The notes below the pieces were generated by a model. The model worked only from the letters and a program-made list of their open reading frames with translations, was not told the origin of the DNA and searched no databases. From NCBI GenBank assembly GCA_028865545.1, contig JAGWJY010000009.1, positions 1-64,000 on the forward strand: a stretch of 64,000 nucleotides of DNA, read 5' to 3'. Below, piece after piece: positions 3,742 to 8,591 of this stretch. The position numbers and the translations under genes were made by a program. This stretch comes from Alphaproteobacteria bacterium. GTDB lineage: Bacteria > Pseudomonadota > Alphaproteobacteria > Micropepsales > Micropepsaceae. Position 1 is the stretch's first letter. Every line of letters begins with the position of its first letter.

Positions 3742-4026
3742 CTACTTCGAGCCGCCGGTGCAGCCTTCCATGCAGGAACCGGTGCAACCTTCCTGGCAAT
3801 TCCCGGTGCAGCCTTCCTGGCAACTGCCCGTGCAGCCCTGCATGCAGGAGCCGGTGCAGCCGCTATAGCAACTGCCTTCGCAGGAACTGTTGCAGTCGGC
3901 GCGCACCGACAGCGGCGCGGTCATCGCCAGCCCCATCACCGCCAGCGCGGGAAGAATCTTTCCGCTGCTCTTCAGAAAATTCCGCCGTCCCATTTTCGGC
4001 GGTTGCGTTCCGTCGGTCTTCTTCAT
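3742..4026 (-). CDS. Tat-signal peptide with cysteine at every fourth residue
   Basis: 94 residues. The N-terminus has a twin-arginine signal (GRRNFLK at residues 13-19, a hydrophobic stretch, cleavage near VRA-DC at about 44). The mature part of about 50 residues contains 12 cysteines, each four residues after the last. Four 8-residue units of the form TGSC-x-x-GC are encoded by four 24-bp tandem repeats (3760-3855). AGGTG sits 4 bases before the ATG. Tat export implies folding or metal loading in the cytoplasm, so metal binding or a modified-peptide precursor are both plausible. No radical SAM maturase, protease or transporter gene is adjacent. Tat-exported, cysteine-rich copper-storage (Csp) proteins offer a loose analogy, but the high Gly/Ser/Thr content argues against their helical bundle. 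Confidence 0.75.
   Translation of the reverse strand: MKKTDGTQPPKMGRRNFLKSSGKILPALAVMGLAMTAPLSVRADCNSSCEGSCYSGCTGSCMQGCTGSCQEGCTGNCQEGCTGSCMEGCTGGSK
3760..3855 (-). repeat. Four 24-bp tandem repeats inside the Cys-rich gene
   Basis: Four consecutive 24-bp units encode the octapeptides TGSCMQGC, TGSCQEGC, TGNCQEGC and TGSCMEGC. The repeat number could vary between strains by slippage or recombination. Confidence 0.75.
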
Positions 4027-4234
4027 GGCACACCTCGAATGCGGGCGTTATGAATTTCCGGCTTGCCATCGCGGCACGGCAAACCATAGCGCAGCCGGCA
4101 TGCGGAAAGAAATCGCAGCGGCGTCATCGCGCGTCGGCGCGCGCGAAATGAAATCAGAATAAATCGCATTCATCCGTGTAAAGATGATAACGAAAATGCC
4201 TATCATTCCTTACATTAAATTGTACGTACGCCTC

Positions 4235-4262
4235 TTGAAACGCGCAGTTGCGTGCATACGTC
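4235..4262 (+). promoter_or_regulatory. Weak promoter-like sequence before the structured segment
   Basis: TTGAAA (4235-4240), a 16-bp spacer and TACGTC (4257-4262). The ten bases 4230-4239 (GCCTCTTGAA) also occur at the -35 of the 32-bp repeat elements, but a 10-base match has a fair chance of being accidental in a window this size. Confidence 0.25.
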
Positions 4263-4756
4263 AGATATGTTGGACCCCAAGAGGGGGCGGCCCGGACCGT
4301 CCGTATCGCGGGGTGCAATCGGCGTCTGAGGAAGTCCGGCGTAACGCACCGGATGGAGTCAGAGGTGCAGCCGTTCGCCGCGTCCGCCCACAAATCCTGA
4401 CGGGGAGAGGGCGACACGCGCGAGACGATTGCTAAGCCGGGGGACGCAAGTCCCGTCTGTGCTCTCGGAGAGAGAACACAGATTGGCCCTTGAGGAGGGG
4501 CGACCGGGGAAAGCGCGGACGGATGTGCACCGAAAATCGCCGGGTGCGGGGCGCCGTGAGGTGGCCCAGTCGTGTCCGTGGCTCACAAGGCGCGGACGAG
4601 AGAAGTACCGTGCGCACGCCCCTCGTGGCGTCCCGCACCGCCCCTCGTTTTGGGAAAAGCGAGGGGAGACGCAAACCTCCGAGCGCTCGCGCGCTGCGGA
4701 GCTTTCGGTGTTGGATGCTAGCAAGAGGAGAAACGAAGAGATGTCGCGACCGCAAA
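4262..4756 (+). ncRNA. Candidate structured RNA of unknown class
   Basis: About 490 bases with no convincing protein; several frames on both strands are open, as expected for non-coding GC-rich DNA. Strong local hairpins occur along its length. These include 4335-4353 (TCCGG/CCGGA, enclosed by CTGA/TCAG), 4441-4454 (5-bp stem with a GCAA tetraloop), 4456-4482, 4527-4547, 4574-4597, 4610-4638 (two stacked 5-bp stems), 4641-4666 (11 paired bases with one bulge) and 4677-4701 (10 paired bases, TCGC loop). It does not show the conserved ends of RNase P RNA, tmRNA or SRP RNA. The orientation is uncertain: the GCAA loop and upstream promoter-like sequence favour plus, while the better terminator at its end favours minus. 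Class and function are unknown. Confidence 0.4.
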
Positions 4757-4789
4757 GAAAAATCCCCTCACCGGACGGATGAGGGGATT
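4754..4789 (-). terminator. Rho-independent terminator after nrdJ
   Basis: A 10-bp stem, AATCCCCTCA/TGAGGGGATT (4761-4770 with 4780-4789) with a 9-base loop, is followed on the minus strand by TTTTTCTTT. It lies 40 bases beyond the nrdJ stop codon. On the plus strand only a weak T-rich tail follows. Confidence 0.8.
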
Positions 4790-4829
4790 TGAACTTATTC
4801 GTGTACGGATGTTTTGCTTCTGCGCTTTC

Positions 4830-8591
<3,762 letters not shown>

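Follow-up and report, generated by a model that had tools for sequence, protein, structure and literature searches.

A remote Tat-leader cysteine-ladder gene as a probable precursor of a CXXX-repeat radical-SAM system encoded on another contig

A short gene on the reverse strand of the window, the whole stretch of 64,000 nucleotides analysed here, encodes a protein in which a twin-arginine leader precedes a ladder of evenly spaced cysteines (Table 1). The translation reads MKKTDGTQPPKMGRRNFLKSSGKILPALAVMGLAMTAPLSVRAD and continues with 12 CXXX units. Read from the sequence, the leader, GRRNFLKSSGKILPALAVMGLAMTAPLSVRA, has the features of a Tat substrate, namely a twin-arginine motif (GRRNFLK) with a hydrophobic stretch and a cleavage site after it; the generic Tat-signal model of Pfam matches the protein weakly (12.3 bits, cut-off 22.7). 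All 12 cysteines lie in the C-terminal half, and the Cys-Cys distance is 4 in 11 of 11 cases, confirming the strict period and the twin-arginine leader described in a first-pass annotation of this DNA. If 12 Cys were placed at random in 94 positions, such a ladder would arise with a probability of ~1e-13, a figure that ignores duplication of the repeat unit.

Table 1. Features of the precursor gene, in window coordinates.
Feature	Position	Strand	Basis
Precursor gene, CXXX-repeat radical SAM target (TIGR04117), 94 aa	3742..4026	(-)	Profile score and translation
Leader / predicted Tat signal, residues 1-43, predicted cleavage VRA-D	3898..4026	(-)	Read from sequence
Twin Arg, leader residues 14-15	3982-3987	(-)	Read from sequence
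Cys ladder, 12 Cys, residues 45-89, strict period 4	3760..3894	(-)	Cys spacing count
24-bp tandem array, codes CTGSCxEG units	3754..3861	(-)	Tandem Repeats Finder, 4.5 copies, 76% matches
Shine-Dalgarno-like GAGGTG, just upstream of ATG	4031..4036	(-)	Read from sequence

Next to the gene lies a dispersed, GC-rich and strongly structured element of ~450 bp (window 4258-4707, approximate ends; RNA fold z-score -6). It has five further matches in the same genome at 97-99% identity, several of them truncated where a contig stops; related copies occur in congeners, for example G043 (91%). The element has no obvious ORF and no Rfam match in scans of the window and of 3900-4830; it is possibly a non-autonomous mobile element or a structured RNA. 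A reading of 4260-4700 as RNase P RNA is unsupported, as these Rfam scans were empty.

The 24-bp tandem repeats seen by the first-pass annotation were recovered by Tandem Repeats Finder (Table 1) and underlie part of the ladder. The existence of this array is what speaks for a reading in which 24-bp tandem duplication within a frame lacking any function produced the ladder incidentally, to which we give almost no credence. The ladder extends beyond the array, its first units (CNSS CEGS CYSG) are not copies of later units, and homologues from several phyla share the period of 4 despite differing codons and triplets; family conservation and joint occurrence with a maturase, described below, also contradict such an origin. 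Between the window gene and its orthologue in a congener (G042), in-frame dN (0.21) is below dS (0.55), and the differences are distributed 12/17/26 over the three codon positions, mostly on the third. Together with the Shine-Dalgarno-like site, these patterns make the frame look translated, contrary to the untranslated frame that the first-pass annotation had named as a point against itself.

Among NCBIfam families the protein matches TIGR04117, 'Cys-Xaa-Xaa-Xaa repeat radical SAM target protein', at 54.5 bits (curated cut-off 50); a Pfam scan returned sub-threshold matches only. By its profile score, the window gene adds a new, remote member to an NCBIfam family that is catalogued yet apparently uncharacterised; a literature search of limited coverage under the names of the families returned no experimental work on the CXXX-repeat system.

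The first-pass annotation was correct that no maturation enzyme adjoins the gene, and of the two options it gave for the partner, elsewhere in the genome or absent, the former applies. In the same genome (G000; 3.4 Mb, 101 contigs, with the window on C29), a genome search located three paralogues of the window precursor side by side on contig C41. Directly downstream of them is a full-length radical SAM protein of the cognate maturase family TIGR04115 (606 bits, cut-off 350), and on their other side are members of TIGR04116 (88.2 bits, cut-off 50) and TIGR04119 (213.7 bits, cut-off 150), giving the order TIGR04119, TIGR04116, three precursors, TIGR04115. With its Cxxx repeats and three partners above cut-off in the same genome, the window precursor corresponds to the CXXX-repeat system (TIGR04117/TIGR04114 targets, TIGR04115, TIGR04116, TIGR04119), differing in that its enzymes lie on another contig. 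The TIGR04117 match and the full system with three precursors on C41 argue that the window gene is the fourth precursor of this genome, set apart from its cluster, so that an apparently orphan Tat-exported Cys ladder gains partner enzymes. Because the gene does not adjoin the cluster, we infer that modification occurs in trans; we put the probability that the window gene is a CXXX-repeat radical-SAM precursor served from a distance by the C41 cluster at roughly 0.7.

The distribution of the system among relatives is in line with this pairing. In a set of 100 genomes, made up of the window's own, 59 from its genus and 40 from its class, TIGR04115 and TIGR04117 are both present in G000, G042 and G058, and neither is found in any of the 97 others (Fisher p 6e-6); all three carriers belong to one genus, so the independent co-occurrence events are few. 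In a 398-genome sample of the phylum, the maturase was found in the window's own genome only. In G042, three precursors are clustered and four are remote; the orthologue of the window peptide is one of the remote copies, on contig C39. This orthologue keeps the CYxGCTGSCMxGCTGSC pattern and is shorter by one 8-residue (24-bp) unit, with 10 Cys. The two loci share no synteny apart from the gene itself, and their surroundings differ. The four remote copies in G042, one of them orthologous to the window gene, indicate that remote precursors are a recurring pattern and no accident of the window assembly; adjacency to the maturase is usual for TIGR04117 precursors, not defining.

The same orthologue bears on a rival view, in which a cluster precursor was duplicated to a remote site and the duplicate, the window gene, is decaying or has fallen out of use, with neither expression nor modification any more. 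Its position apart from the cluster, outside any operon and beside a dispersed repeat would suit such a copy; however, ORF and leader are intact, the periodicity is perfect, and purifying selection is apparent relative to an orthologue that is itself remote and in another context, all of which makes decay improbable. The preferred reading, modification in trans, suggests that one maturase cluster could serve precursors elsewhere in the genome, in which case searches made only beside the enzyme undercount its substrates.

To see the ladder across the family, we consider the best 80 of 161 maturase loci from a scan of named genome contigs with two peptide patterns, the use of which is a source of bias. 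These 80 loci are mainly from Bacteroidales MAGs; other hosts are Alphaproteobacteria, Acidobacteria, Fibrobacteres, Ignavibacteria, Clostridia and others. Ladder ORFs are present at 78 of the 80 loci and number 120 in total, a few of them truncated or spurious. A leader of the form RRx(F/V/L/I)(F/L/M/I) is found in 109 of the 120, and the gap is exactly 4 in 90% of ~2,490 Cys-Cys gaps. The homologues called for in the first-pass annotation thus share the Cys period, the irregular cysteines that would have told against it did not appear, and radical-SAM genes recur among the neighbours. Across the 120 ORFs from these 80 loci, the number of Cys ranges from 4 to 74 (median 17), and a simple pattern detects a lipobox-like site in 27. 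The residues between ladder Cys are small and polar (Gly at x2 in 39%, Ser/Gly/Thr at x3 in 70%), with no invariant acceptor residue among them. Past the Tat motif (RRxFF), the family leader conserves Lys at +9 (72%), Leu at +12 (74%) and Pro at +13 (82%), which we infer to be a putative maturase recognition element.

In the best 80 of 161 loci, the recurrent neighbours of the maturase are radical-SAM and Tat genes, and no metal-handling gene family recurs. Nor was DUF692/MbnB, the partner that would mark a methanobactin-like product, noted among them. This bears on the two fates that the first-pass annotation had offered for the ladder, metal storage or a cyclised or modified natural product. 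The second gains from the radical-SAM cluster, which favours modification before export; metal storage fares worse. Proteins exported by Tat are typically folded or carry a cofactor, and a ladder that binds metal or iron-sulfur clusters, is loaded in the cytoplasm and has its site tuned by radical-SAM/SPASM modification would account for the very high Cys density, for a variable repeat number as suits a storage polymer and, through cytoplasmic loading of thiolate ligands, for Tat export. Csp copper-storage proteins are four-helix bundles, and Csp1 is a Tat-exported, Cys-rich bacterial protein. The window protein resembles Csp1 in its Cys content and Tat leader, but it matches no Csp family, and scans against Pfam and NCBIfam (E up to 10, with the caveat that very weak matches can be lost to HMMER filters) returned no metal-storage, copper-storage or four-helix copper-binding family for it. 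Since, in addition, the ladder has as its obligate partner a radical SAM enzyme akin to thioether formers and the maturase loci lack a recurrent metal-handling family, we consider a metal-binding ladder unlikely.

The catalytic enzyme, TIGR04115, carries CxxxCxxC in all 73 sequences examined. Among characterised families PapB is the closest, matched by the C41 maturase at 199 bits, far below the cut-off of 340; next come the CcpM, nif11-type, QhpD (124 bits) and SCIFF maturases. By sequence, the closest solved structure is 5WGG, that of the SCIFF maturase CteB, which carries an N-terminal RRE domain (PMC8326336); in TIGR04115 a median of 26 residues ahead of the CxxxCxxC motif leaves no space for such a domain.

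CteB is also the fold match of TIGR04119. An AlphaFold model of TIGR04119 (pLDDT 85.6) matches CteB over 275 residues with a Z of 20.7 at 3.1 Å, and CxxxCxxC is present in 0 of 35 sequences, which conserve one N-terminal Cys and SPASM-like cysteines; in a profile comparison with TIGR04115, only the C-terminal part aligns. The CteB-like predicted fold and the missing CxxxCxxC lead us to predict that TIGR04119 (L010:10612-11739 and 35 homologues) is a pseudo-radical-SAM/SPASM partner, with leader binding or electron supply as candidate tasks. This assignment provides a concrete structural prediction for a family so far known by a functional label ('CXXX repeat peptide maturase'). For TIGR04116 the model predicts a mainly helical protein (pLDDT 86.5), and a PDB fold search with it gave no significant match. 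In a Thermoguttaceae MAG, one ORF (L095:2467-4686) matches both the catalytic radical SAM and TIGR04119-like profiles. It is apparently a natural fusion, and would fit a radical SAM protein and TIGR04119 acting as one complex.

Tat genes are linked to the system in another part of its range. Clustering of neighbours at the best 80 of 161 loci recovered, besides the precursors and the three system proteins, TatC at 43 loci and TatA at 25. At L046:10412-11423 and 42 other loci, mostly from Bacteroidota, tatA/tatC close the CXXX-repeat operon; Pfam and NCBIfam confirm one tested example (TatC 207.8 bits, TatA 50.5 bits). Among Bacteroidota-labelled loci of this set with at least 3.5 kb downstream, tatC follows in 33 of 47. 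It usually lies 150-330 bp past the TIGR04116 gene, with tatA between them where detected. This linkage lends independent support to Tat export of ladder proteins, which the first-pass annotation had proposed and to which the RR motif in 109 of 120 ladder ORFs also points. TatC is encoded in 35 of 35 carrier genomes tested; the one TatC of the window's genome sits apart, on contig C54.

We also considered whether Bacteroidales keep Tat solely for the CXXX system. This idea was rejected: in the order of G492, a Bacteroidales MAG, TatC occurs in 244 of 295 genomes, and what is enriched in carriers is a second TatC (4 of 7 carriers versus 12 of the 288 others; p 2e-4).

Taken together, these observations are compatible with the following sequence of events. 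In the cytoplasm, recognition of the leader would probably fall to TIGR04116, to the pseudo-radical-SAM protein TIGR04119 or to both, as is proposed because the catalytic TIGR04115 has no room for an N-terminal RRE. TIGR04115, a SPASM enzyme nearest the thioether-forming PapB/SCIFF/QhpD group, would then move along the repeats and staple Cys to nearby residues, the kinship of the enzyme being what points to thioether stapling. The stiffened ladder domain would exit via the Tat translocase after folding and, after signal cleavage, the product would stay periplasmic or, in some relatives, become a lipoprotein. As length and Cys number vary so much, we favour an exported, cross-linked, thioether-stapled protein over a fixed-size antibiotic. 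A literature search on Tat and RiPPs, of limited coverage, described no natively Tat-exported RiPP among the matches listed.

Comparison with characterised maturases places limits on the chemistry. The PapA/PapB ranthipeptide system (freyrasin) is similar in that PapB is the nearest characterised family and its Cys-rich substrate receives several cross-links, linking Cys to Asp/Glu at i+4 in CX3D motifs (PMC9413430). The window ladder, in contrast, has no CX3D/E motifs, and position i+4 is Cys throughout; if thioethers form, the acceptor rule must therefore differ from that of PapB. The CXXX system further differs from PapA/PapB in an enzyme below the PapB cut-off and without RRE, and in a precursor with a Tat leader. 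QhpD, the maturase of quinohemoprotein amine dehydrogenase, makes Cys-Asp/Glu thioethers in a protein subunit (PMC8326336); it is a related radical SAM/SPASM enzyme, but its substrate is a defined enzyme subunit, whereas the CXXX substrate is a ladder of variable length.

In its most complete form our reading is that the CXXX system makes multiply thioether-stapled proteins of variable length, which would be stiffened in the cytoplasm by cross-linking and leave it via Tat, in Bacteroidota via a dedicated translocase. A radical-SAM machine of two proteins would carry out the modification; one of them, TIGR04119, having the fold without the SAM-cleaving cluster, would act in leader recognition or electron transfer, and scattered precursors would be modified in trans. 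We hold this full account tentatively, as a conjecture somewhat short of even odds. Because Bacteroidota operons include tatAC genes, a sequence of modification, stiffening and export in the folded state can be tested directly. Both this tatAC linkage and the assignment of TIGR04119 as a pseudo-enzyme may already have been noted elsewhere, and we do not claim priority for them.

Two loci, in a deltaproteobacterial MAG and a Chlorobiaceae MAG, encode short precursors with five to six Cys and without RRxFF beside a similar maturase (L061:7651-7848 and L062:1595-1795). They possibly represent a divergent subfamily with another fate.
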